NCBI RefSeq assembly: GCF_009026825.1
Contig: NZ_CP045032.1
Location: 1-64,000, forward strand
DNA from: Corynebacterium urogenitale
Lineage (GTDB): Bacteria; Actinomycetota; Actinomycetes; Mycobacteriales; Mycobacteriaceae
Reading direction: 5' to 3'
Length of the DNA stretch: 64,000 nucleotides
Position numbers and translations under genes: made by a program. Shown here one piece after another: positions 6,185 through 64,000 of this stretch. Positions within the stretch are counted from its first letter, which is position 1. Each line of letters begins with the position of its first letter. The notes beneath the pieces were generated by a model. That model saw only the letters and a list, made by a program, of their open reading frames with translations. It made no database searches and was not told where the DNA came from.

Positions 6185-7669
6185 TTAGGAGCCACTCAGG
6201 TTATCACCGCCGGAGTTAGCCGCACTGCTGCCTGAGCCATTGCCATTGAAACCACTGCAGGTGCCGCTCAGTGGGCGGTTGTTAAAGCGGTTGAGCAGGA
6301 AGCCGATGCCGAAAGGCCCACCGGAGACAGCCTGGATGAAGTGGTTGTAATCAGCCAGTGGCGGCATGATGTCATCCCGGTAGACGACCTGCGAGCCCTT
6401 CTCACACCACTGTTTCGCCAGGTTCTTGGCCTGGTTGTACTCCACATTGGCATCGTAGCGCCCGGAGATAATCATCACCGGCGCTGCTGGAGTGCCATTG
6501 CCAATGCGCTGCTCATTCATGGCTTTCTCGCCCTCTGGCAGGTCGTCCAGCAACTCATCCAGAGAACGGCCATCGACCGTCCATTGGCCAGTGGTCTGGT
6601 AGCCATATTTGTCTTCGATCTCATCCGTACACATCGTGGACAGATCCTCGATGGTGGCCTTACCTTCCTCGGAGAGGTGCCGGTTCAGGTCCTCCGCCAG
6701 GTGCGGGTAGCGGACAACGAGGCCGTTGATGGTGAAGCCGATTGCCCCCATCAGGTCGGAGCCATCGATCTTCTTCTGCACTTCGTCCAGGTTTGCCGGT
6801 GGTGCGGAAGCATAGGCACCTGCGACATCTAGATCCGGTGCATAGCCTGCGGCTTCCTCCACCGCAGCAGCCGAGGCGCCGCCGCCCTGGGAGTGGCCGT
6901 AGAAGCCGACCTTGCCGAAGTTGCCGCCGCGGGATTCCACGAGGTTGCGCGCCGCACGGGCTCCATCCAGCATGGCGTGCGCTTGCTCTAGGCGGTTCAT
7001 GTAGGTGTGCATGCCGGGAGTGCCCATGCCCACATAGTCGGTGACGAAGACACGCACGCCTTGAGTGGCAAAGATGCCGTCGTAGAGGCCTTCGAGGGAG
7101 ACGAGTCGCCCAGTGGTGAAAGGGTCCGGTGCGTCGTTGAGTGGCCAGTTCCGTGATGGCGCGCATTGGTCGCCTTGGCCGACTGTGCCACGCCCGATGA
7201 CGACGGTTGGGCGCTCGCCTTCGCCTTTCCAAGGAGTGTTGGGTTCCACCATGTAGCCGGAAACGGGCACTGTGGTGCCGTCGGCCAGCGTCGTCGTGTA
7301 GATGACCTTCGTTGCTGTCTTGGGCAGGGATAGGCGTACGCCGGGTAGTGGGCCGGAGATATTTGTTTCTTGGTCGCGGAGGATTTCGCCGGCTTTGCTT
7401 GGAGTGAGGTCGCCGGTTTCGTAGAACGGGTCTACGTCGCCCTTTTCGGTGCGGGGGTTGGGCGAGGAGGAGCCGGTGGAAGGGCCGTTGGGGTATTGGT
7501 TGTCGCTGACGGAGGAGAGCAGGGAGCTGGCTTGCGCGCCGGAATCTTCGGAGTCGTCGGCGGCGTGGGCGACGACGGGGAATGTCAGCAGTGCCGTTGC
7601 AGTGGCCAGGGCGGTGGTTGTTGAGCTGGCGGCCTTGAGGGCGCCGCGGAGAGTGTGTGTGGTGATCAT
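6185..7669 (-). CDS. Secreted lipase (LIP family, alpha/beta hydrolase)
   Basis: Predicted exported triacylglycerol lipase/esterase of 494 aa. The N-terminus is a signal peptide with a hydrophobic stretch and a likely cleavage after AHA at about residue 36, followed by a low-complexity Asp/Ser region. The nucleophile elbow GHSQGG places the catalytic serine at about residue 260. Further signature blocks are VVIGRGTVGQGDQCAPS, VFVTDYVGMGTPG, and near the C-terminus VMIISGRYDANVEY and DYNHFIQAVSGG, likely contributing the acid and His. These match the secretory lipase (LIP) family. A lipid-dependent skin corynebacterium would use it to release fatty acids. It is transcribed away from gyrB. Confidence 0.88.
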   Translation of the reverse strand: MITTHTLRGALKAASSTTTALATATALLTFPVVAHAADDSEDSGAQASSLLSSVSDNQYPNGPSTGSSSPNPRTEKGDVDPFYETGDLTPSKAGEILRDQETNISGPLPGVRLSLPKTATKVIYTTTLADGTTVPVSGYMVEPNTPWKGEGERPTVVIGRGTVGQGDQCAPSRNWPLNDAPDPFTTGRLVSLEGLYDGIFATQGVRVFVTDYVGMGTPGMHTYMNRLEQAHAMLDGARAARNLVESRGGNFGKVGFYGHSQGGGASAAAVEEAAGYAPDLDVAGAYASAPPANLDEVQKKIDGSDLMGAIGFTINGLVVRYPHLAEDLNRHLSEEGKATIEDLSTMCTDEIEDKYGYQTTGQWTVDGRSLDELLDDLPEGEKAMNEQRIGNGTPAAPVMIISGRYDANVEYNQAKNLAKQWCEKGSQVVYRDDIMPPLADYNHFIQAVSGGPFGIGFLLNRFNNRPLSGTCSGFNGNGSGSSAANSGGDNLSGS

Positions 7670-53073: not shown

Positions 53074-53156
53074 GGGCGAGTGGCGGAATGGCAGACGCGC
53101 TGGCTTCAGGTGCCAGTGTCCTTCGGGACGTGGGGGTTCAAGTCCCCCTTCGCCCA
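53074..53156 (+). tRNA. tRNA-Leu (CAG anticodon)
   Basis: The acceptor GGGCGAG (53074-53080) pairs with TTCGCCC (53149-53155) with one G-T. The anticodon stem CTGGC/GCCAG encloses TTCAGGT with CAG at 53107-53109. A long variable arm (TGTCCTTCGGGACG) marks a class II tRNA. CCA is not encoded. The same tRNA lies beside fhaA in mycobacteria. Confidence 0.97.
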
Positions 53157-53183
53157 CAGCGAGCAGTTCAACAAACTGCTACA

Positions 53184-53234
53184 CCGGAGGTCACAAACTC
53201 GAAAGGGTTTGTGACCTCCGGATTCTTTGTTTTT
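53184..53234 (+). terminator. Terminator after tRNA-Leu
   Basis: CCGGAGGTCACAAAC (53184-53198) pairs with GTTTGTGACCTCCGG (53207-53221), extended inward across a GAAA loop with one T-G wobble; a T-rich stretch follows. Confidence 0.85.
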
Positions 53235-53329
53235 CTGAACTTGAGCGGTCGAGGATTGCAAGTGTGGGGATTTACATCCTAACTCCCGCTCTCGCCTGTC
53301 GAACTCTTGTTTTCGATGGTGTCAATAAG

Positions 53330-53725
53330 TCATCTTGATTGTTGTCTTGATCTGACGGCCTTGGCCAGGAAACGCTTCGCTGCGGCCACGTTCTGCTTCG
53401 GAGAGAGGTAAAAAGTCCAGGGTCTGGCCACCGGCGGTGTTCGCCCGATAGAGGTAGCACCACCTGCCGCCGACCCGGATATAGATCTCATCCACTCGCC
53501 AGGAACTGGCCTGCCAGTCAGGTACCTGCCGGTACCACTGTGTTTGCTTGTCCAGCTCAGGGGCGTATTTCTGGTCCCAGCGGTAGGTCGTGGTGTGATC
53601 GACTGGCACGCCCCGCGCGGTCATCATTTCCTCCAGATCGCGGTAGCTCACCCCGTAGCGGCAGTACCACCGCACTGCCCACAGAATGATGTCACGGGGA
53701 AATGACGACCGGAGAAGATACCCAT
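53330..53725 (-). pseudogene. IS6-family transposase, two frameshifts and 3' truncation
   Basis: Assembled across frames the product reads MGIFSGRHFP then RDIILWAVRWYCRYGVSYRDL, VDHTTTYRWDQKYAPELDK, WRVDEIYIRVGGRWCYLYRA (first catalytic Asp), QTLDF then FYLSPKQNVAAAKRFLAKAV, a typical IS6 transposase N-terminal half. One base is missing in the C-run near 53693-53698, and one extra base lies in the A-run at 53408-53412 (T-run on the coding strand). The frame ends at 53330 before the second Asp and Glu, so the gene is inactive. Confidence 0.8.
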
Positions 53726-53780
53726 GGCTGTGATTATTTCACGTCGCTCTTCCTACTGCCCCCAACTTTGCAACAGCACC
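53330..53780 (-). mobile_element. IS6-family insertion sequence remnant
   Basis: The 5' end of the element is intact: on the minus strand from 53780 it reads GGTGCTGTTGCAAAGTTGGG, matching the IS6-family terminal repeat type. The 3' end of the transposase and the other terminal repeat are missing. It forms the left boundary of the copper island; 16 nt separate it from the island's first gene. Confidence 0.75.
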
Positions 53781-53796
53781 GTTCAGGGTGGCTGGA

Positions 53797-54411
53797 CTAT
53801 TCGGCGGGTTGGATCTCGCTCTCGGTGACCCACTTGTGGTTGGTCATCGTCATCCCGTCGACGGTGAGATCAACCATGTAGACCGTCTCCTCGGTGGAGT
53901 AATCGATGGTGGCCTCAGCACCCTTCATGCCGGACATGTGCTCGGCATCCAGGACAACGCTCGCCCCGTCGGGCAGGGGGGCCTGACCCGGATCGACGAG
54001 CTCCTCATGGACGACCCAGCGGTGGTCGGTAACCGGGGCCCCACCCTCGGTGGGGGTGTAGCTGACCGAATAGGTCGTGGTGTCAAACGCCCCGGAAATG
54101 GTGGCGGTGGCCCCGTCCATGCCGGGCATGTGGTCAGCGGTGAGGATGACCTCGGTGCCCACCGGGTACGTGGGATCCTCGGCCTCTTCAATGCCTGCCG
54201 GCGGTACCCCGCCGTCGGCAGGGTGGTCGTGCCCGCCGTGCTCTTCGTCGGCAGTGCTGGTGTCTTGCTGGTGGGTCTCGTGGGTCTCTGCGGTTGCCGT
54301 CGTGGTGCTGGTGGTGTCGGCATCGTCGGAGTTGTCGGTGGCGTCGCTGCAGGCGGTCAGCGCTAGGGTGGAGGTCAGTACCAAGGCGGCGAGGGTAATA
54401 CTGCGTTTCAT
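53797..54411 (-). CDS. YdhK-like lipoprotein with two DUF1541 repeats
   Basis: A 204-aa exported lipoprotein: the signal peptide ends in the lipobox LTAC, then a His/Asp/Glu-rich spacer (EEHGGHDHPADG) and two copies of DUF1541 (AEHMPGMDGATATI-type starts HMPGM and HMSGM, each ending HRWVV or HKWVT). YdhK proteins occur in copper clusters and presumably bind metal on the outer face of the membrane. The ATG at 54411 has AAAGGA upstream. Same strand as the P-ATPase, 47 nt downstream of it. Confidence 0.82.
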   Translation of the reverse strand: MKRSITLAALVLTSTLALTACSDATDNSDDADTTSTTTATAETHETHQQDTSTADEEHGGHDHPADGGVPPAGIEEAEDPTYPVGTEVILTADHMPGMDGATATISGAFDTTTYSVSYTPTEGGAPVTDHRWVVHEELVDPGQAPLPDGASVVLDAEHMSGMKGAEATIDYSTEETVYMVDLTVDGMTMTNHKWVTESEIQPAE

Positions 54412-54458
54412 GAGTGTTCCTTTCAAAGGTGGTGTGAGTTAGGGGTCGAGAGACAAGG

Positions 54459-56693
54459 TCAGTCAGTAACGGTTACGGGGGATATCGACCCACTGTGTTC
54501 CTCCTTCCCGTCGGTCGGAGCCAGGTGAGCCGGCTCCAGATCAATGCGGCGCAACAGCTGGGCGTTCAGGGCCACCACGATGGTCGAGGCAGACATCAAG
54601 ATCGCGCCCACGGCCGGGGACAGCACGAACCCGATCGAAGCAAGCACTCCGGCAGCCAGCGGCACGGCGAGGATGTTGTAGCCAGAGGCCCAGATCAGGT
54701 TCTGGATCATCTTGCGGTAGCTGGCCTGGGACAGCTCAATCATCGACAGCACTGCCCGCGGGTCATCACTGGCTAGGACCACCCCGGCTGATTCCATGGC
54801 CACATCCGTGCCGGCACCGATGGCGATACCGACATCCGCGCGGGTCAGAGCGGGGGCGTCATTGACACCGTCACCGACCATGGCCACGCTCAGGCCACGC
54901 TCCTGTAACTGGGTGACCTTGGTGTCCTTGTCCTGGGGCAGGACCTCGGCGAAGACCTCATCGATCCCCAGGTCCTTGCCCACTGCCTGGGCCACCTGCT
55001 GCGCGTCACCGGTGATCATCGCGACCTTCACCCCGCGGTCCTGCAGGGCTTTCACGGCGGCGCGGGATTCGGGGCGGATCTTGTCCTCGACGGCCACGGC
55101 ACCGATGATCTGACCGTCGCGGACAATATGGAGCACGCCGGCCCCACGCCCGGTCCAGGCGCTGGTGGTGTCGGTGAGCTCGGCCGGGGTGGTGAGGTTG
55201 AACTCGCGCAGCATGTTCGGCCCACCCACGAGGATCTCAGCGCCATCGACAGTGGCCCGGACCCCCCGGCCGGAGGCGGCGCTGAAACCAGTTGCACGGA
55301 TTTGCCGACGGGAGGCCTCGGGATGGGCGGCCGCGGCCGCCACGATGGCGCGGGCCACGGGGTGTTCACTATCGGCCTCGGCGGCGGCGGCCAGGGCCAG
55401 CAGCTCGCCCTCGGTGACGCCGACAGCTGCCGCGACACCGGTGACCGCGTGCGCACCCTCGGTCAGGGTGCCGGTTTTGTCGAAGAGCACCACGTCGATG
55501 GTGCGCATCCGCTCGAGCGCCATCCGGTCCTTGATGAGCACCCCGGATTTCGCGGCCCGTTCGCTGGAGATCGCAATGACCAGCGGAATCGCCAGGCCTA
55601 GGGCGTGCGGACAGGCGATGACTAGCACCGTAACCGTGCGCACCACGGCATCGTCTGGGCTGCCGATGGTGGTCCACACCACCGCGGTGATCAGAGCGGA
55701 GATCAGCGCGAACCAGAACAATAACGCTGCCGCCCGATCCGCCAGGGCCTGGGCCCGGGAGGAGGACTCCTGGGCGTCGGCAACCATGCGTTGGATCCCG
55801 GCCAGGGCGGTGTCCCCGCCGGTAGCCTCCACCCGGATGCGGACGGTGTTGTCGGTGGCCACGGTACCGGCGACCACCTTGTCACCGGTGTCGCGGAAGA
55901 CGGGACGGGATTCGCCAGTGATCATCGCCTCATCGAATTCGGCGGCTCCGTCGAGGATGGTTCCGTCGGCCGGCACCCGGGCACCGGCCCTCACCAGCAC
56001 GACGTCGTCGACGACCAGCTCGGAGATGGCCACGGTGCGGGTGGTCCCGTCGATGACTTTCTCGGCCTCATCCGGCAGCAGGGCAGCCAGTGCGTCAAGC
56101 GCGGAGGACGCGGCCCCGAGAGCGCGCATCTCCAGCCAGTGGCCCAGCAGCATGATGGTCACCAGCAGGGCCAGCTCCCACCAGAAGTCCAGGTCAAAAC
56201 CGCCCAGCCCCAGAGTGGTGACCCAGGAGGCGACAAACGCTACGGTGATGGCCATGGCGATCAGGAGCATCATCCCGGGTTGGCGGGATTTCAGTTCTTT
56301 CCATCCGCCCTTGAGGAAAGGCGTTCCGCCGTAGACGAAGATGATCGTGCCCAGCACCGGGGGGATCCAGGTGGAACCAGGGAATGCCGGGAGATGGTAG
56401 CCGAGCAGGTGGGCGACCATGGGGCTGAAAATAACGACGGGAATGGACAGAATCAGCGACCACCAGAAGCGGCCCCGAAACATTGCGGTGCTGTGTCCGG
56501 CGTGTTCGCCGTGACCATGAACGTGGTGGTCTTCGTCTAGGGCGGAGTGCGGGTGATCGTGGGGCATCGCCTGGCCGTGGGTGTCGGCATCCGCGTGGTG
56601 TTCGTGGCTGGCATGATCCGGGTGGTGGGTGTGGTCTGTTTCCGGAGCGGGGTGATCACCATGGTGATCGCCGGAATGATGGGGAGTGCTCAT
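54459..56693 (-). CDS. copB: Copper-translocating P-type ATPase (CPH type, CopB-like)
   Basis: A 744-aa P1B ATPase exporting copper. The N-terminus is extremely His-rich (about 1-70) and carries no HMA CxxC domain. Eight membrane helices surround the transmembrane metal motif CPH (Cys361-Pro-His363), diagnostic of the CopB group. The phosphorylation site DKTG has Asp405; TGE (MITGES) and MVGDGVNDAPAL are present. The ATG at 56693 follows GAAAGGA by about 6 nt. It lies 51 nt after the HMA gene, so a metallochaperone-like partner is coexpressed. C. glutamicum has the same gene in its cop cluster. Confidence 0.93.
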   Translation of the reverse strand: MSTPHHSGDHHGDHPAPETDHTHHPDHASHEHHADADTHGQAMPHDHPHSALDEDHHVHGHGEHAGHSTAMFRGRFWWSLILSIPVVIFSPMVAHLLGYHLPAFPGSTWIPPVLGTIIFVYGGTPFLKGGWKELKSRQPGMMLLIAMAITVAFVASWVTTLGLGGFDLDFWWELALLVTIMLLGHWLEMRALGAASSALDALAALLPDEAEKVIDGTTRTVAISELVVDDVVLVRAGARVPADGTILDGAAEFDEAMITGESRPVFRDTGDKVVAGTVATDNTVRIRVEATGGDTALAGIQRMVADAQESSSRAQALADRAAALLFWFALISALITAVVWTTIGSPDDAVVRTVTVLVIACPHALGLAIPLVIAISSERAAKSGVLIKDRMALERMRTIDVVLFDKTGTLTEGAHAVTGVAAAVGVTEGELLALAAAAEADSEHPVARAIVAAAAAHPEASRRQIRATGFSAASGRGVRATVDGAEILVGGPNMLREFNLTTPAELTDTTSAWTGRGAGVLHIVRDGQIIGAVAVEDKIRPESRAAVKALQDRGVKVAMITGDAQQVAQAVGKDLGIDEVFAEVLPQDKDTKVTQLQERGLSVAMVGDGVNDAPALTRADVGIAIGAGTDVAMESAGVVLASDDPRAVLSMIELSQASYRKMIQNLIWASGYNILAVPLAAGVLASIGFVLSPAVGAILMSASTIVVALNAQLLRRIDLEPAHLAPTDGKEEHSGSISPVTVTD

Positions 56694-56744
56694 GACGTTC
56701 CTTTCGCTCAACCCGGTCGGGGTCGAGATGATGGGTAGAACTGA

Positions 56745-57071
56745 TCAGGACAAGACGGTGTAGCCGGCCTCCTCGATGGCCCGGCGAACCATCTCCGGAG
56801 GTACGACACCGGTGACCGTGACGGTGGAAACACCACCAGCAGCGAGATCAATCTGGACGTCGTCGACCTGGGGGAGGGCCTGAAGGGCCTGGGCCACGCT
56901 TTTCGCGCAGTGCCCGCAGGTCAGGCCGGTGATCTGGTAGCTAGGGGAGGACCCTCCTGCTGACGAGTCGCTGGCGGCAGGGATGGAGGCGGTGTCGGCA
57001 CGTGAGGCAGGTCCGCAACAGCTGCAGCCGTGGGAGACCATCGGCAAGAGACGGGGCGGGGAGGTGATCAT
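56745..57071 (-). CDS. Heavy-metal-associated (HMA) domain protein, CopZ-like
   Basis: A 108-aa protein. The C-terminal two thirds form an HMA fold with GLTCGHC (Cys52 and Cys55, the metal-binding pair) and the closing VRRAIEEAGYTVL. The N-terminus has an extra cysteine cluster HGCSCCG (Cys16, 18, 19) and a Ser/Ala linker, which is more than a minimal copper chaperone. It probably hands Cu(I) to the adjacent ATPase, which lacks an HMA domain itself. Confidence 0.85.
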   Translation of the reverse strand: MITSPPRLLPMVSHGCSCCGPASRADTASIPAASDSSAGGSSPSYQITGLTCGHCAKSVAQALQALPQVDDVQIDLAAGGVSTVTVTGVVPPEMVRRAIEEAGYTVLS

Positions 57072-57119
57072 GGGAAAGCTCCTACGGGTCGGTGGGATGC
57101 GGTGATGCTACTCTCTAGC

Positions 57120-57140
57120 ATATACCCCCTGGGGGTATAT
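57120..57140. promoter_or_regulatory. CsoR-type G-tract palindrome in the copper promoter
   Basis: ATATACCCCC and its exact complement GGGGGTATAT flank a single T. It sits 49 nt upstream of the HMA start, overlaps a TATGCT -10-like box (minus strand, 57117-57122) and fills the -35/-10 spacer. C-tract/G-tract palindromes with AT ends are the operator form of CsoR/RcnR repressors. No csoR gene is in the window. Confidence 0.65.
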
Positions 57141-57185
57141 TTTTAATGGGTGGAGGGCACGGCCCTCACGCGGGGCAGGGTGTGG

Positions 57186-58313
57186 TCACTGAGCAGCCTC
57201 CTCACTGTCGGGAGGGGAGAGCGGGAGGCGGAGGGCAAACACCGCTCCGCGACCGGGTCCGGGGGAGGTGGCGGTAAGAGTGCCGCCGTGGGCCTCGATC
57301 AATGCCTTGGAGATGGTCAGACCGATACCGGCCCCGCCGTCGTCCCGGCTGCGGGCGGCATCCCCCCGGTAGAAGCGTTCGAAGATGTGTCCGAGCTGGT
57401 CAGGTGGGATGCCCTCGCCGTCATCGGCGACGTGGATGAGCGCGGTCGACGCCCCCTGTCGATGGACGCTGATCCGGACCTGCCCGCCGGCCGGGGTGTG
57501 CCGTAGCGCGTTCGACAGGAGATTGCTCATCACCTGGCCGAAGCGTTGCCGGTCCACGAGCACCCGGATGGTGTCCGTAATGGTCTCGACCTGTAAATCG
57601 ACGCCTTTGTCAGCATAAGCTTCCTCCGCGGCAGCAGCGGCGGTATGGAGCAGATCCCCGAGCCCTTCCTCCGCCAGGTCCAAATCGATCCGGTGTTCCT
57701 GGGCCCGGGAGACATCGTCGATGTCTTCCATCAACCGCGTCAGGCGGGTGAGCTGGTCAGCCATGATCGTGTGGGTGGCATTATTCCAGTCCACGACCCC
57801 GTCCTGGAGACCATCGAGGTAGACCGTGAGCACCGATAAGGGGGTACCCATTTCGTGGGCCAGATCAGAGAGCATCTGGCGGCGGACTTGTTCGGTGTGT
57901 TCCAGCCGGTCGGCCATGGTGTTGAAGGCATGCGCCAGGGTGGTGACCTCGGGGCCTGCTTCTCCGGCGGGCACGCGGATACGGTAGTTGCCGGCCGTCA
58001 GGCTGGTAGCGGCGCGGGTGAGATCCTGCAGGGGGGTGCGCAGACGACGCGATAACCACAGGCTGGCCAGCAGGGCGCTGATCAAGGCAGTGGGCAGGGC
58101 GACGGCCAAGGTGATCAGGCTGGCGCCCCGGTAGGCCTGCTCGGCATGGAACAGCTCCAGCGAGGGGTCCTCCCGGCCGGTCATCAACATATGATCATGG
58201 AACAGGATCGGACCCACCATCGTGGCCACGGCCGCGGCCACCAGCAGGCTAATCACCACCACCAACACCTGGGCGGCCAGGAAGCGGAAGGTCAGGCCGG
58301 GTCCGTGATTCAT
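57186..58313 (-). CDS. copS: Sensor histidine kinase CopS
   Basis: A 375-aa two-helix sensor kinase: an N-terminal transmembrane helix, a short extracytoplasmic loop (about 35-75), a second helix, a HAMP domain, the dimerisation box SDLAHEMGTPLSVL with the phospho-acceptor His, and the HATPase domain with NLLSNALRH, DDGEGIP and GAGIGLTI. It overlaps copR by 4 nt (ATGA). It should sense extracytoplasmic copper. The compact sensor loop contains several acidic and His residues. Confidence 0.9.
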   Translation of the reverse strand: MNHGPGLTFRFLAAQVLVVVISLLVAAAVATMVGPILFHDHMLMTGREDPSLELFHAEQAYRGASLITLAVALPTALISALLASLWLSRRLRTPLQDLTRAATSLTAGNYRIRVPAGEAGPEVTTLAHAFNTMADRLEHTEQVRRQMLSDLAHEMGTPLSVLTVYLDGLQDGVVDWNNATHTIMADQLTRLTRLMEDIDDVSRAQEHRIDLDLAEEGLGDLLHTAAAAAEEAYADKGVDLQVETITDTIRVLVDRQRFGQVMSNLLSNALRHTPAGGQVRISVHRQGASTALIHVADDGEGIPPDQLGHIFERFYRGDAARSRDDGGAGIGLTISKALIEAHGGTLTATSPGPGRGAVFALRLPLSPPDSEEAAQ

Positions 58314-59032
58314 GGCTGCCCCACCCGGTAGCCCACGCCACGCACGGTGTCGATAAACCCCCGGCCCCGGGTGTCGGTGCCGAGCTTGCGACGCAAGTTG
58401 CCGATGTGGACATCGACGATGCGTTCATCACCGACCCAGGTGGTGTCCCAGACCTCGGAGACCAGGTCGTGGCGGGTCAGCACCTGGCCGGGGCGCAGGG
58501 CCAGGGCAACCAGCAGCTCGAACTCCGTGCGGGTGAGCTCCACGGTCGTCTCCCCCACCCGCACCTGATGGGCGACGGGGTCAAGGATGAGGTCACCAAC
58601 GATCAAGGGAGTGGTCACCTGCGGTGGGGTGGTGCTGGTGCGCGGGCGGCGCAGCACCGCATACACCCGGGTCACCAGTTCCCGGATGCTAAAAGGTTTG
58701 GTGATGTAGTCATCCGCCCCCAAGGTCAAACCGCTGATCTTGTCGTCCTCGCTGCCACGCGCGGTGAGCATGAGGATGTAGCAGTCCGAGAAGGTGCGGA
58801 TCCGTCGGCACACCTCCAGGCCGTCGAGTTCGGGCAGCCCCAGATCCAGCACCACAACATCGGGGGAAAAGCGACGGGCCTCGTCCACGGCCTGGGTGCC
58901 GGTGTGCGCCTGGCGGGTATCGAAGCCGGCCCGGATGAGGTAAGAAGCCACCATCTGAGCTAGGGGTTGTTCATCATCGACGACCAGCACCCGCCCCGGG
59001 GGCGTGGCGGTGGTCGGTGTGCGGTCAGCCAT
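58310..59032 (-). CDS. copR: OmpR/PhoB-type response regulator CopR
   Basis: A 240-aa response regulator: a receiver domain with the phospho-acceptor Asp in VVLDLGLPELDG, and a winged-helix DNA-binding domain (VELTRTEFELLVALALRPGQVLTRHDLVSEVW, VDVHIGNLRRKLG). The close match of the upstream direct repeat to the C. glutamicum CopR box supports the copper role. It is cotranscribed with copS. Confidence 0.9.
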   Translation of the reverse strand: MADRTPTTATPPGRVLVVDDEQPLAQMVASYLIRAGFDTRQAHTGTQAVDEARRFSPDVVVLDLGLPELDGLEVCRRIRTFSDCYILMLTARGSEDDKISGLTLGADDYITKPFSIRELVTRVYAVLRRPRTSTTPPQVTTPLIVGDLILDPVAHQVRVGETTVELTRTEFELLVALALRPGQVLTRHDLVSEVWDTTWVGDERIVDVHIGNLRRKLGTDTRGRGFIDTVRGVGYRVGQP

Positions 59033-59090
59033 AGGCCCTAGTATCGCTCCGGCCAGGGGGGAATACCACCCTCGCTCAGTGCCCGGCGGG

Positions 59091-59110
59091 AAATCTTCAT
59101 CAAATCTTCA
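59091..59110 (-). promoter_or_regulatory. CopR box (9-bp tandem direct repeat)
   Basis: The minus strand reads TGAAGATTT, two bases, TGAAGATTT. As I recall it, this is exactly the CopR recognition motif described in C. glutamicum. It lies 58-78 nt upstream of copR and 325 nt before cueP. The rest of the 403-nt copR-cueP gap has a CCCTG/CAGGG hairpin with a T-run at about 59309-59336, and a TAGATA box near 59366; I see no gene in it. Confidence 0.8.
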
Positions 59111-59435
59111 AACATCACCCGTCGACCGCCGTCACCCCTGTGCCCCACCCCGGGTCGGCGGCATCGCCTCCCCTGGTCAGCTCAGCAGGCGCCACCAGGG
59201 ATTTCACTGCCTGCACCGCATACCCGGGGCGGGTAGAAGGACATCGCCCACGGCTGTGGGGTGGTGTCCCGGTGGTGACCCAGCCCACCGGAGTCACCCC
59301 CTTTTCGCCCTGTTATAAGGCTGTGAGCAGGGTTTTTTATTTCTGGGCCGTCAGGCACCCGTGCTAGATAAAAGTATGGCATTGACCTTGAGGCGGTGTC
59401 TTCTCACCGTCTTACCACGATCCAAGGAGATTGAC

Positions 59436-60011
59436 GTGAACCGAGCAGCGATCGCAGCCGCCGCCCTTGCCCTCGCCCTCGCGGGGTGTTCGGCCACCGA
59501 CCCGGAACCCACCGCCGACGGGACGGTGTCCCAGAATACATTCCTGACTACCCATGGCCTGGCCGCCATGGACGCGGTGGAGATCATTGATCACCTCGAC
59601 CGGCAGAAGGTCACTGAGCGCCCCACGGATCTGATCGCCTCCGTGCGTGCCGATGAACTGCTGCTCTCGAGCGATGACCAGGAAGTCGTGGTCGATCTTC
59701 CCGACAATCAGACGTATGTCTCGATCGCCCCCTATCTCACCTCCACCCACGACTGCTTCTACCACAGCCTCACGACCTGCCTGGGGGAACTCGACAATGA
59801 GGACATCCAGGTCACGATCACCGATGAGGCGACCGGTGAGGTGCTGGTGGACGAGGCGACAACCACCTTCGACAACGGGTTTATTGGCTTCTGGCTTCCC
59901 GATGATGTCACCGGCCTGATTGAGGTCAGCTACCAGGGGCGTACCGGCACCACGGAGTTTTCCACCGCCGACGACGGTGCCACCTGTGTCACAGACCTGC
60001 ACCTGACGTGA
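59436..60011 (+). CDS. cueP: CueP-like copper-binding lipoprotein
   Basis: A 191-aa exported protein related to CueP, which in Salmonella is the main periplasmic copper protein. The family block SIAPYLTSTHDCFYHSLTTC holds Cys107 and Cys115, and the C-terminal half has FDNGFIGFWLPDD and the closing DDGATCVTDLHL with a third cysteine. A lipobox LAGC (Cys18) makes it a lipoprotein with a very short n-region. The GTG start at 59436 follows CAAGGAG by 6 nt; the longer frame has none. The oxidase follows after 71 nt. Confidence 0.87.
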   Translation: MNRAAIAAAALALALAGCSATDPEPTADGTVSQNTFLTTHGLAAMDAVEIIDHLDRQKVTERPTDLIASVRADELLLSSDDQEVVVDLPDNQTYVSIAPYLTSTHDCFYHSLTTCLGELDNEDIQVTITDEATGEVLVDEATTTFDNGFIGFWLPDDVTGLIEVSYQGRTGTTEFSTADDGATCVTDLHLT

Positions 60012-60082
60012 TGGCTCAGCAGGGTCCTCACCTGCGCCTGTCTCCCGTATCACTGAAATCTAACACCAAGGAAGGTTAAATC

Positions 60083-61564
60083 ATGATAAACGGATTTTCC
60101 CGACGACAGTTTCTGCTCGGCGGGCTCGTCCTCGCCGGCACCGGGGCCGTGGCCGCCTGCACCAGCGACCCTGGACCCGCTGCCTCGGCACCAGGTTCCT
60201 CCCTTCGCCCCACTCCCACCCCCAATGCGCTCGGTGAGCCGACGGTGCGCCGGACACTGACCGCCCGGCCCCTCTCTCTGGATATCGGCGGCATCGAAGC
60301 CAAGACGTGGGGATACGTCTCTGACACCGGGGATGCGGCCATTGAGGCCACCGCCGGCGACGTCCTCCAGGTCGATGTCACCAATGAACTGCCTGAGAGC
60401 ACCTCCATCCATTGGCATGGCATCGCACTCCACAACGCAGCCGACGGTGTGCCCGGCATGACCCAGGACCCCATTGAACCTGGCGAGTCTTTCTCCTATG
60501 TTTTTGAAGTCCCCCACGGTGGCACCTACTTCTACCATTCCCACAGCGGCCTGCAGCTTGATCGCGGTCTCCACGCCCCACTGATCGTCCGTGACCCGCA
60601 AGACGCTGAGGACCAGGACGTCGAGTGGACCATCGTGCTCGACGACTGGGTCGATGGCATTCAGGGCACTCCCGACGATGAGCTCGACAAGCTCACCGGA
60701 ATGGGTTCGGGCGACCATAACGGGAAGAAGGGGATGGGAGGTCACGGCCATATGATGCACGGCACCCCGGACCGGGTACTGGGCGGGGATGCCGGCGATG
60801 TGATGTATCCGCACTACCTCATCAACGGACGTATCCCCCGTGCTCACCGGACCTTCGAGGCTCGCCCGGGCGACAAAGCCCGCCTGCGGTTCATCAATTC
60901 CGGCGGTGACACCATCTTCAAGGTGGCCCTCGGTGGTCACCGCATGACCGTCACCCACACCGACGGCTTCCCTGTCCAGCCCTGGGAGACCGAATCGATC
61001 TACCTGTCGATGGGCGAGCGTGTCGACGTCGAGGTCATCCTCGGCGACGGCGTCTTCCCGCTCACGGCTTTGGCGGTGGGTAAGGACGACCGCGCCTTCG
61101 CCGTCATCCGCACCGCCGGCGGCCAGGCCCCCCGCCCCGATGTTGACTTCCCCGAGTTGTCGTCCACCGGACTGCTTCTGTCCTCCCTGAAGCCAGCAGA
61201 CCGTGCACTCCTGCCCGAGGGCACACCAGACCGAGAAGTCAGCATCGACCTGGGCGGGCAGATGATGCCATATGAATGGCGCATTCTCACCGACGGCCAA
61301 TCCTCCTCCGCGACCGTGCAGGAGGGCCAGCGCCTGCGGATGGTCATGCGCAACAGGACCATGATGCCCCATCCCATGCACATCCACGGCCACACGTGGG
61401 CGCTGCCCGGCAGCGGCGGACTACGCAAGGACACCGTCCTTCTCCGCCACGGTGAAACCATGATCGCCGACCTGATCGCTGACAACCCCGGGGAGTGGGC
61501 ATTTCACTGCCATAACGCCTATCACATGGAAACCGGGATGGTCAGCTCGCTTCGCTACGAGTAA
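60083..61564 (+). CDS. copO: Tat-exported multicopper oxidase (CopO/CueO-like)
   Basis: A 493-aa multicopper oxidase that should oxidise Cu(I) to Cu(II) outside the membrane. The Tat motif is SRRQFLL, followed by a hydrophobic region and a lipobox-like VAAC. All copper ligands are present: HWHG (His110, His112), YHSH (His152, His154), HPMHIHGH (His430, His433, His435) and HCHNAYHMETGM (His475, Cys476, His477, His481, Met486 for type 1 copper). A Met/His-rich loop (DHNGKKGMGGHGHMMHGT) near residue 215-235 may be an accessory Cu(I) site. GAAGG precedes the ATG. Confidence 0.93.
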   Translation: MINGFSRRQFLLGGLVLAGTGAVAACTSDPGPAASAPGSSLRPTPTPNALGEPTVRRTLTARPLSLDIGGIEAKTWGYVSDTGDAAIEATAGDVLQVDVTNELPESTSIHWHGIALHNAADGVPGMTQDPIEPGESFSYVFEVPHGGTYFYHSHSGLQLDRGLHAPLIVRDPQDAEDQDVEWTIVLDDWVDGIQGTPDDELDKLTGMGSGDHNGKKGMGGHGHMMHGTPDRVLGGDAGDVMYPHYLINGRIPRAHRTFEARPGDKARLRFINSGGDTIFKVALGGHRMTVTHTDGFPVQPWETESIYLSMGERVDVEVILGDGVFPLTALAVGKDDRAFAVIRTAGGQAPRPDVDFPELSSTGLLLSSLKPADRALLPEGTPDREVSIDLGGQMMPYEWRILTDGQSSSATVQEGQRLRMVMRNRTMMPHPMHIHGHTWALPGSGGLRKDTVLLRHGETMIADLIADNPGEWAFHCHNAYHMETGMVSSLRYE

Positions 61565-61820
61565 CCCCCACAGCAGGGTTGAGCGCCGAGGTGGGCGGGG
61601 GTGTCCCCCGAGTAGTGGACACGGCGTTGGTGTCAGGGTTGAGCAGTGTGTGCCAGGAGTCGACGGGTTTGAAGTATGCGTCAGCGCGCACGGCAGCAAG
61701 TTCAATGATGTGGTCGTAGCGCTTGTTAAAGCCGGTGGTTTCGGTATCAATGACTGCAAAGACCGGCGTGCCCGATGTGCGCGGGGTGTAGCGGTTGAGG
61801 AGGTTTTCTAAAAGGCCCAT
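61542..61820 (-). pseudogene. DnaQ-type 3'-5' exonuclease, 5' stump truncated by the island
   Basis: Residues 1-66 (MGLLENLLNRYTPR, then VFAVIDTETTGFNKRYDHIIELAAVRADAY and WHTLLNPDT) are the N-terminus of a DEDDh exonuclease, with the first catalytic pair Asp25 and Glu27. After about 61623 homology stops and the frame ends inside the end of the oxidase gene. The remaining motifs are absent. The island, or an IS event, has cut this gene. Confidence 0.7.
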
Positions 61821-62041
61821 GGCCTTGAGCCTAGAGGCCCATACCGACATGCCCGCCTAAATGCTATCGAACACTGTAACCAACGTGGATTTCTGTGGAT
61901 AACCACACTGGCCCCGGTTGCGTCCGCTGGCGTGGTGTATCTGTAGCCCGCGGTAGGCCTTGTGCCGGTGCACAATGAGGCGACCATCGCGGGAACCTTT
62001 CGAATCAACTCCTACATATCCTCGAAAGGACGTACCCTGCG

Positions 62042-63284
62042 ATGGCCGCTGATCCTCATCATATCGACCCAACCTCCTATCTCGAAGAACTGCTTACCCA
62101 AGCCTCCCCGGACTTGATGCGGCAGATGCTTGCTGACTTCATCAACCAAATTCTTCTCGGCCCAAGCCGATAGTGTGTGCGGGGCTGACTACGCCACCGT
62201 GTCACCAGAGCGGACGAATAGGCGCAATGGCTACCGCCATCGCCAACTCGACACCCGTGTTGGTTCCATCGATGTGGCTATCCCGAAGCTGCGCACAGGC
62301 TCGTTCTTCCCCGATTGGCTGCTCGAACGACGCTCCCGCACCGAACGAGCCCTGACCACCGTTGTCGCCACGTGTTACCTCAAAGGGGTCTCTACCCGCA
62401 GGATGAACGATCTTGTTGCCACCCTTGGGATATCCAACCTGTCGAAGTCCCAAATCTCCGACATGGCCAAAGAGCTTGACACCATGGTCGACGAGTTTCG
62501 AACCCGCCGCCTTGACCAAGGCCCGTACTTTTACCTGTCGTGTGACGCGCTCACGATGAAGGTTCGTGAAGGCGGTCGCGTCGTCAAAACCAGCGTGCTC
62601 ATCGCCACCGGCGTCAACAACGAAGGCTACCGGGAACTATTAGGCATGCAGGTGGCCACCTCAGAGTCGGTGGAATCATGGACCGGGTTCTTCCAAGACC
62701 TTAAAGCCCGCGGACTAGGCGAGGTCTACCTCGTTACCAGCGACGCACACCTTGGCATCCAAGCAGCCGTGGCCCAGGTGCTGCCGACGGCTAGCTGGCA
62801 GCGCTGCCGCACGCACTGTGCAAAGAACCTCTCGTCCAAAGTCTCTAGGCGTGGCTGGACAACCTTGTCTGGGATGTTTCATTCGATATTTCAGCAAGCT
62901 GACGCTAGGTCCACCTGGGGCCAGGCAAGGGAAGTTGTTGAGTTTTGTCACCAGCGTTTCCCCGAGGTTGCAGACTATCTGGAGGAGTCCTGGGAGGAGA
63001 TTCTCGCGTTTACCTGCACACCGAAAGCGGTGTGGACAAAGGTGTGGTCGAACAATCCGACAGAGCGTTGCAACCGTAAAATCCGCCGGCGCACCGACGT
63101 CGTCGGAATCTTCCCCAACCGAGCAGCAGTCGTCCGACTCGTCGGAGTGGTACTCGCCGAACAGCATGACGACTGGCTTCAGCAAAAGCGCTACATGTCA
63201 CTAGCCAGCCTTGAACAAACCAGAGCGCTCATCGCTGCCAACACCGTCGACACAGGCGAACACCCCAGAAACGACGCCGCCTAA
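62042..63284 (+). mobile_element. IS256-family (Mutator-type) transposase, single frameshift
   Basis: The first frame starts MAADPHHIDPTSYLEELL and runs through MLADFINQIL, ending at the TAG 62171-62173. A second frame continues SAQADSVCGADYATV to the end, giving a complete transposase of about 413 aa with the three catalytic regions YFYLSCDALTMKVREGG, VYLVTSDAHLGIQAA and the C-terminal NPTERCNRKIRRRT. An extra C near 62156 explains the break. Downstream of the transposase I could not define a matching terminal repeat, and upstream bases 61851-62041 include only the possible left end and nothing else recognisable. Confidence 0.85.
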
Positions 63285-63787
63285 CGACCCGAACTCAAGC
63301 CCGCGCCAGACACCACAACTAGACCTCTCGAAGCCCCAGATTCAAAAGGAACAGAAACACCACTCAAAAGGACTTGACCAGAACGATTTGTGGGGTGAGC
63401 AAAATTGGCGCCTTTCTTGTGCAGAGCGAAGGCCTTATCCGGGCACAGGTCGACGAATGAAGGCGAGATTTTCAACATCAGTTGTGATCGTTAATTGTTG
63501 CAGATCGATTTTCGATGTCTGGCTCGTAGCTGCATTTACTAGTTATTGAAGCTGCTGTTTCAAGAATTTTGGTGCATATTGCACCGCAAATCTGCGGATT
63601 TATTATTGCACTATCTGGGAAAACACTTCATTGTGATTTCTTTTCCTGATTTCTACTGCGAGTGCCGGTTCCATCCGGTAGTGTGCATAGTGACTTTCAA
63701 GGTTTAGTCAGCTTGCAGTCCTTGTACTTACTGGCTTTTACGTGAAACGACCCTGGGACTAACCACCCCAAAACGGGAGAAACCATC
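63285..63787. other. Region with no recognised gene
   Basis: Between the transposase and the next short frame I see no convincing gene. It contains small dyads (GTGCATATTGCAC near 63572) and is more AT-rich than the copper genes. Short open frames here have no recognisable homology. Confidence 0.4.
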
Positions 63788-63877: not shown

Positions 63878-64000
63878 ATGGAAATCCCGCCCCCGCATTT
63901 TGGCCGGAGGAAAACACGCGTAGTCTCCGCGAACGAATGCGTTCGTGTTGAGCTGATGCTTCCTGCACCGATTGTCCAACGCCTGGCTGCCGAGTCGGCG
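63878..64000 (+). CDS. Partial CDS at the window edge, function unknown
   Basis: The ATG at 63878 follows AGAAGGAA by about 8 nt and the frame stays open to the window end. The 41 visible residues (MEIPPPHFGRRKTRVV, then CVRVELMLPAPIVQRL) are too few to assign. Confidence 0.5.
   Translation, partial: MEIPPPHFGRRKTRVVSANECVRVELMLPAPIVQRLAAESA

Follow-up and report, generated by a model that had tools for sequence, protein, structure and literature searches.

What brought a set of copper-resistance genes to the 3' side of a tRNA-Leu gene in Corynebacterium urogenitale, and where does the DNA that carries them begin and end? The stretch analysed here, referred to as the window, is the first 64 kb of the one-contig chromosome of this bacterium (NZ_CP045032.1; 2,351,892 bases). 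Genes in the window were named with Pfam and NCBIfam profiles, and the tRNA with ARAGORN and Rfam. The original prediction for this locus placed a YdhK lipoprotein, a CPH-type ATPase, a heavy-metal-associated (HMA) protein, CopS/CopR, CueP and a multicopper oxidase near tRNA-Leu, and profile matches bear out that gene set. Comparison with related genomes indicates that a transposon which inserted at tRNA-Leu(CAG) probably carries these copper genes as its cargo. The element measures 15,319 bp, occupies chromosome positions 53161-68479 and extends past the window.

The element starts 3 nt after the tRNA gene and is bracketed by two copies of the pentamer ACAGC. The following features define its insertion site, its left end and its right part; positions beyond 64,000 are chromosome coordinates outside the window.

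53074..53157, + strand: tRNA-Leu (CAG), the insertion target (ARAGORN; Rfam RF00005 at 53074-53156)
53156..53160: left copy of the ACAGC target duplication (5 bp: the discriminator A and the 4 nt after it)
53161..53349, + strand: left end of the element, with a hairpin at 53162-53180, a 17-bp hairpin at 53184-53221 and a T-rich tail
53349..53780, - strand: stump of an IS6-family insertion sequence (IS), internal to the element, with a single end and a disturbed transposase frame (profiles, junction)
63878..64000, + strand: start of a small open reading frame (ORF) of 77 residues that runs to chromosome 64111 and precedes the recombinase-like gene
64328-64852 and 64771-65403: tyrosine-recombinase-like protein, in two frames
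65403-67163: DDE transposase of 586 residues, Tn5-like predicted fold
67312-68202 (L045:7312-8202): Abi_C / AbiJ-like defence-type gene at the right end of the element
68480-68484: right copy of the ACAGC duplication

Matching 5-bp duplications were found in all 13 related elements for which both ends were located, and 12 of these sit at the identical tRNA-Leu position. The copper module lies between both ends in four of them, namely those of C. urogenitale (15,319 bp), C. pseudokroppenstedtii (13,471 bp, at a non-tRNA site with the duplication GATTG), C. curieae (13,401 bp) and G142 (17,747 bp; G and L numbers are our handles for genomes and loci). Going from left end to right end, all four have the IS6 piece first, then the copper genes, then the transposase genes. 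Most weight falls on C. pseudokroppenstedtii, whose duplication cannot have come from tandem insertion at a tRNA. Measured lengths of the other elements range from 8,748 bp (G241) to 44,889 bp (G035). Terminal inverted repeats agree at 16 of 16 positions in G090, at 9-11 of 16 in four other elements and at 9 of 16 in G515. In a control, the right end was the best position resembling a terminal inverted repeat in four of five divergent elements (tied in G169 and G026; third in G241).

The right boundary was set by the break in homology among relatives in G000, G142, G084, G035, C. curieae and G122, and by position and duplication in G005. The same 5-mer occurs elsewhere in the downstream stretch in 6 of 12 elements (G000, G035, G122, G005, G176, G026). 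The count of duplications leaves out G216 and G160 (left ends not located), G076 (right flank the same as that of G122), G030, G221, G079 and G174 (ends not both examined), G230 (truncated transposase), and G472 and G380 (no tRNA in the fetched stretches; the G472 contig ends after the gene).

The left end is terminator-like, with a predicted fold of -41.1 kcal/mol (z -7.9) for 53161-53240; a terminator scan was also run. In G071, the closest of 80 genomes by fhaA, no such sequence follows tRNA-Leu, but it is matched whole or in part in 70 of 242 Corynebacterium genomes at E <= 1e-8. Among 29 other fetched left-end loci, 20 have tRNA-Leu directly upstream of the left-end sequence. The IS6 stump scores 108 bits against its profile, under the cut-off of 125, and shows one terminal repeat by eye. 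The original prediction took the 5' end of this stump, at 53780, as the left edge; we rejected that edge, as the left end begins at 53161 after the tRNA and the stump is internal. A genome-specific deletion at 53349 was likewise rejected, as the junction between left end and IS6 is common to ten genomes, C. urogenitale included. Left-end units also occur in other settings. Three stand in tandem after tRNA-Leu in G088 (L211:7262-7601), and in G094 one lies directly after tRNA-Ala (CGC) (L277:1034-1114), so tRNA-Leu may not be the sole target. Units of a related subfamily were found at L270-L276, six of these seven in one identical non-tRNA context in different genomes.

The 586-residue protein is, by structure prediction, a Tn5-like DDE transposase with an RNase H-like fold, the link to Tn5 coming from a second structural comparison, with VIA-align, after Foldseek had given no match at E <= 0.001. 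It has three invariant acidic residues in the pattern D, D, E, which we take as the putative catalytic residues. Searches of Pfam and NCBIfam with the C. urogenitale protein gave no match, and Pfam, NCBIfam and PHROGs supplied no family name for the transposase or its partner. Three of 46 transposase family members matched DDE_Tnp_1 (Pfam) weakly, with a best E of 0.063, and neither protein family found a match among PDB sequences at E <= 1. The named homologues listed are 'hypothetical' or 'uncharacterized', save two 'Transposase' entries. The partner has a tyrosine-recombinase-like fold by prediction, and 3 of 15 members match Phage_integrase weakly (best E 0.023). The 15-sequence alignment, judged by eye, shows conservation neither of a catalytic tyrosine nor of the box-II histidine, and the first catalytic arginine is present in part of the members only. 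An ORF of L090 in the equivalent position is 39% identical to the 77-residue ORF. The Abi_C-type gene occurs also in C. pseudokroppenstedtii (in two frames) and in G230.

The copper module and the sequences that follow it in the window are listed below.

53797..54426, - strand: YdhK-type lipoprotein with two DUF1541 stretches (profile match)
54459..56711, - strand: CopB-type copper P1B ATPase of 750 residues with a CPH motif and a His-rich N-terminus
56745..57071, - strand: HMA (CopZ-like) protein (profile match)
57186..58313, - strand: CopS sensor histidine kinase (profile match)
58310..59032, - strand: CopR response regulator (profile match)
59091..59110, - strand: perfect CopR box TGAAGATTTGATGAAGATTT, between copR and cueP (motif from PMC3140484)
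59361..60011, + strand: CueP periplasmic copper-binding protein (profile match)
60083..61564, + strand: multicopper oxidase (CopO type), 493 residues (profile match)
61597..61622: junction of an exonuclease stub with the standard end of the module at 61596 (comparison of copies)
61615..61850, - strand: DEDDh exonuclease stub, the first ~75 residues, a passenger of the module (RNase_T match)
61915..63380, + strand: IS256-family element, ends approximate (transposase frame 62130-63284)

The IS256-family transposase is the sole match to Transposase_mut in the whole genome, and its N-terminal part (from 62043, by eye) lies in a different frame from 62130-63284.

By sequence comparison, the copper genes are the CopRS-type cluster of C. 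glutamicum, where cg3281-cg3289 form the CopRS regulon (PMC3140484). As far as that cluster is described there, the two share the gene order copB, HMA gene, copS, copR, secreted protein, copO in divergent operons, as originally predicted, and the CopR box is identical. Unlike the C. glutamicum cluster, the window lacks tlpA and has YdhK/DUF1541 in addition, and its copper genes are the probable cargo of a tRNA-associated element. The box in the window has 0 mismatches to the motif, against a chance mean of 0.01 even when up to 3 mismatches are allowed. A survey of 67 loci, 7 of them without the alignable stretch, found a perfect box in 35 of the 60 other module copies that have it. The cargo would be expected to act as in C. 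glutamicum, with copper sensed by CopS, CopR binding the single box and switching on both operons, CopB exporting copper, CueP binding it and the oxidase converting Cu(I) to Cu(II), and it may in this way confer copper resistance on its C. urogenitale host. In C. glutamicum and C. diphtheriae, a hypothetical 9-kDa ORF is noted between copR and cg3286 (PMC3140484); its counterpart between copR and cueP lies here at 59140-59367, and the frame is lost in some copies.

The module is widely mobile horizontally, as judged from its distribution. It is matched at E <= 1e-50 in 124 of 242 Corynebacterium genomes and is nearly complete at >= 94% nucleotide identity in 56 of the 242, C. urogenitale included (counted from the match table, nearly complete meaning from query position 41 or lower to 7109 or higher of 7392). 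Oxidase relatives are encoded at 68 loci in the named genome collection, of which 63 (L088-L150) were analysed and five distant ones dropped; loci of Rothia, Dermabacter hominis and Pseudoglutamicibacter carry the module whole or in part at about 93-97% identity. The original prediction of horizontal mobilisation is supported by G044, in which identity is 96% over 53781-62659 but 69-82% in those parts of the flanking genes that can be aligned. In many genomes the module has IS6 copies at its borders. Among 80 module-bearing genomes, the module is on the same contig as fhaA in 53 and within 20 kb of it in 20, against a chance expectation of about 2% (an estimate that ignores shared ancestry); placement near the tRNA is thus enriched, not the rule. 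Some match to the module region is found in 49 plasmid records, many to the IS6 part alone. Plasmid modules (Rothia terrae p1/p2, C. marinum pCmarinum1, pLEW279b and C. halotolerans pCha1) have the same core at 80-96.5% identity over the covered part, and homology to the window ends at or before 61600. The Rothia, C. marinum and C. halotolerans plasmids have DUF305 beside the ATPase, and pLEW279b has YdhK and a four-helix-bundle protein; those of C. marinum and C. halotolerans continue into cytochrome c maturation genes. Horizontal spread via pLEW279b was proposed by the C. glutamicum authors (PMC3140484).

The exonuclease stub had been read as the right edge of the island, together with the IS256-family element, and as a chromosomal gene inactivated on the spot. 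The edge lies instead at 68479, with the stub internal. The stub is fused to the oxidase end of the module in 20 of 242 Corynebacterium genomes, at various chromosomal places and in both orientations (counted where matches reach query position 7315 or beyond, window position 61773), and in 12 of the 63 named loci. A search for the missing 3' half elsewhere in the C. urogenitale genome found paralogues of 27-37% identity and no matching half. Local inactivation was rejected on these grounds: the stub travels with the module, and therefore no exonuclease was inactivated at the tRNA-Leu locus. Most simply read, the fusion arose a single time and spread afterwards. A complete exonuclease gene of 231 residues is present in G125 (L052:1507-2202), where it is convergent with an MmeI-like restriction-modification gene (L052:1507-5123). 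In C. tuberculostearicum (L095; G005) a related element has a terminator after its right end, and the stub lies beyond that terminator. This arrangement suggests that in that lineage the exonuclease was a native neighbour of tRNA-Leu. In G108, a ribosomal RNA adenine dimethylase gene (L050:11693-12589) lies about 3 kb from the exonuclease end of the module.

The copper set had also been thought to replace the normal chromosome. It was inserted, and most genes that follow tRNA-Leu in G071 have homologues further along in C. urogenitale. Of 12 such genes, eight have homologues at 91.6-102.4 kb and one at 121.2-121.9 kb; for the other three there was no homologue within the 80 kb examined. These positions imply an accessory zone at tRNA-Leu that reaches beyond the element.

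As to how the element would insert, the transposase may make staggered cuts in the target, 5 nt apart and spanning the discriminator base plus the following 4 nt. The recombinase-like protein, which lacks a conserved catalytic tyrosine, may assist in locating the tRNA. The tRNA-adjacent end brings a terminator-like hairpin, so tRNA-Leu would still have a terminator after insertion. We propose, tentatively, that these features may define a new family of actinobacterial transposons of ~9 to 45 kb, in which a catalytically dead recombinase-fold protein would read tRNA-Leu and steer a Tn5-like transposase to the discriminator base, the element's own end would replace the terminator, and copper resistance and other cargo would spread through one safe site.

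Several observations weigh against the reading of the copper genes as cargo of a transposon inserted at tRNA-Leu. Terminal repeats are weak (6-8 of 16 positions) in seven elements of the C. urogenitale subfamily. In the control, the right end was not the best position in the seven close-group elements, and each downstream stretch contained 7 to 122 other positions with a better match to the left end. The duplication guided the search for the right ends of G515 and the divergent elements, and one insertion site of the 13 is not a tRNA. The layout varies slightly, as the exonuclease piece is present in three of the four copper elements (not G142) and in C. curieae the left end and the IS6 piece are about 1 kb apart. 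The recombinase-like gene is intact in relatives and split between frames in C. urogenitale, and Foldseek gave no match for the transposase at E <= 0.001 (best E 0.026). Most module copies lie away from tRNA-Leu, so the tRNA-Leu element is not the main vehicle of the module. Additionally, insertions at tRNA-Leu can be tandem, each remaking the identical duplication, and with such stacking at one position the history of the locus may exceed a single insertion. Directly after the right-end duplication, chromosome 68485-68550 (L045:8485-8550) has another left-end unit of divergent sequence, probably what is left of an earlier insertion at this tRNA. Because the sequence after 68484 is left-end-like, the two ends here could stem from different insertions.

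Stacked units of this kind would fit a history of accretion, in which successive insertions at tRNA-Leu were fused by deletions and the module arrived separately via IS6 or homologous recombination, the present ends never having moved together here. Left-end units stand three in a row in G088, and a second unit directly follows the right-end duplication in G090, G160, G176, G030, G035, G216 and G230 and probably at 68485 in C. urogenitale; IS6 copies lie at module borders in many genomes, and the C. curieae spacing implies that the internal layout is not fixed. We nevertheless consider accretion unlikely, since C. pseudokroppenstedtii has the full layout (left end, IS6 stump, module, exonuclease piece, transposase genes, right end) at a non-tRNA GATTG site and the internal left-end/IS6 junction is common to 10 genomes. 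Movement of the copper genes by IS6 alone, as a translocatable unit, would explain the IS6 end that directly flanks the module at 53780 and the IS6 copies that flank it elsewhere. It is scarcely credible given a single IS6 end with no IS6 seen on the other side, and outer ends that have 5-bp duplications and are not ends of IS6, which makes 8-bp duplications. An insertion at a tRNA 3' end, one protein with a tyrosine-recombinase-like fold and the weak Phage_integrase matches would all suit a classical genomic island of the kind proposed for RUSTI (PMC5526665), with recombination between a circular form and the tRNA 3' end carried out by a tyrosine integrase. However, the repeat, precisely 5 bp long, takes its sequence from the local target, at the non-tRNA site too; the catalytic tyrosine and box-II histidine are not conserved, and the elements were defined by their DDE transposase gene, all of which makes such an island very improbable. 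Insertion of a copper-bearing transposon at tRNA-Leu(CAG) remains the explanation that we favour.

Among known systems, Tn5-type (IS4-like) DDE transposases share with the element's transposase the predicted fold and the three invariant acidic residues. The present enzyme is unlike them in lacking a Pfam or NCBIfam match, in its length of 586 residues, in its recombinase-like partner and in its preference for a tRNA site. Tn7-like transposons make 5-bp duplications, insert in one orientation next to an essential gene and carry cargo, and the element resembles them in all three respects. It differs in having two other proteins instead; among the ORFs scanned, which were not every ORF, Pfam named no TnsC, TniQ or TnsA/TnsB-type protein. 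The integrative conjugative element RUSTI of Glutamicibacter is likewise an actinobacterial island at a tRNA-Leu 3' end, and its published account, as far as it bears on this point, describes an imperfect tRNA repeat and no DDE transposon (PMC5526665). A search of the open-access literature found no named tRNA-Leu transposon in Corynebacterium, which is weak evidence of novelty.

These results correct the picture of a locally inserted island and present a metal-resistance set carried by an element for which a tRNA gene offers a safe site. The machinery for jumping seems to belong to a so far unannotated family; as the transposase and its partner have no family name in Pfam, NCBIfam or PHROGs, such islands go unrecognised. 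With a transposase, a recombinase-like partner, one fixed target position and a built-in terminator-like hairpin, the element offers a testable case of how a transposon may choose its target.
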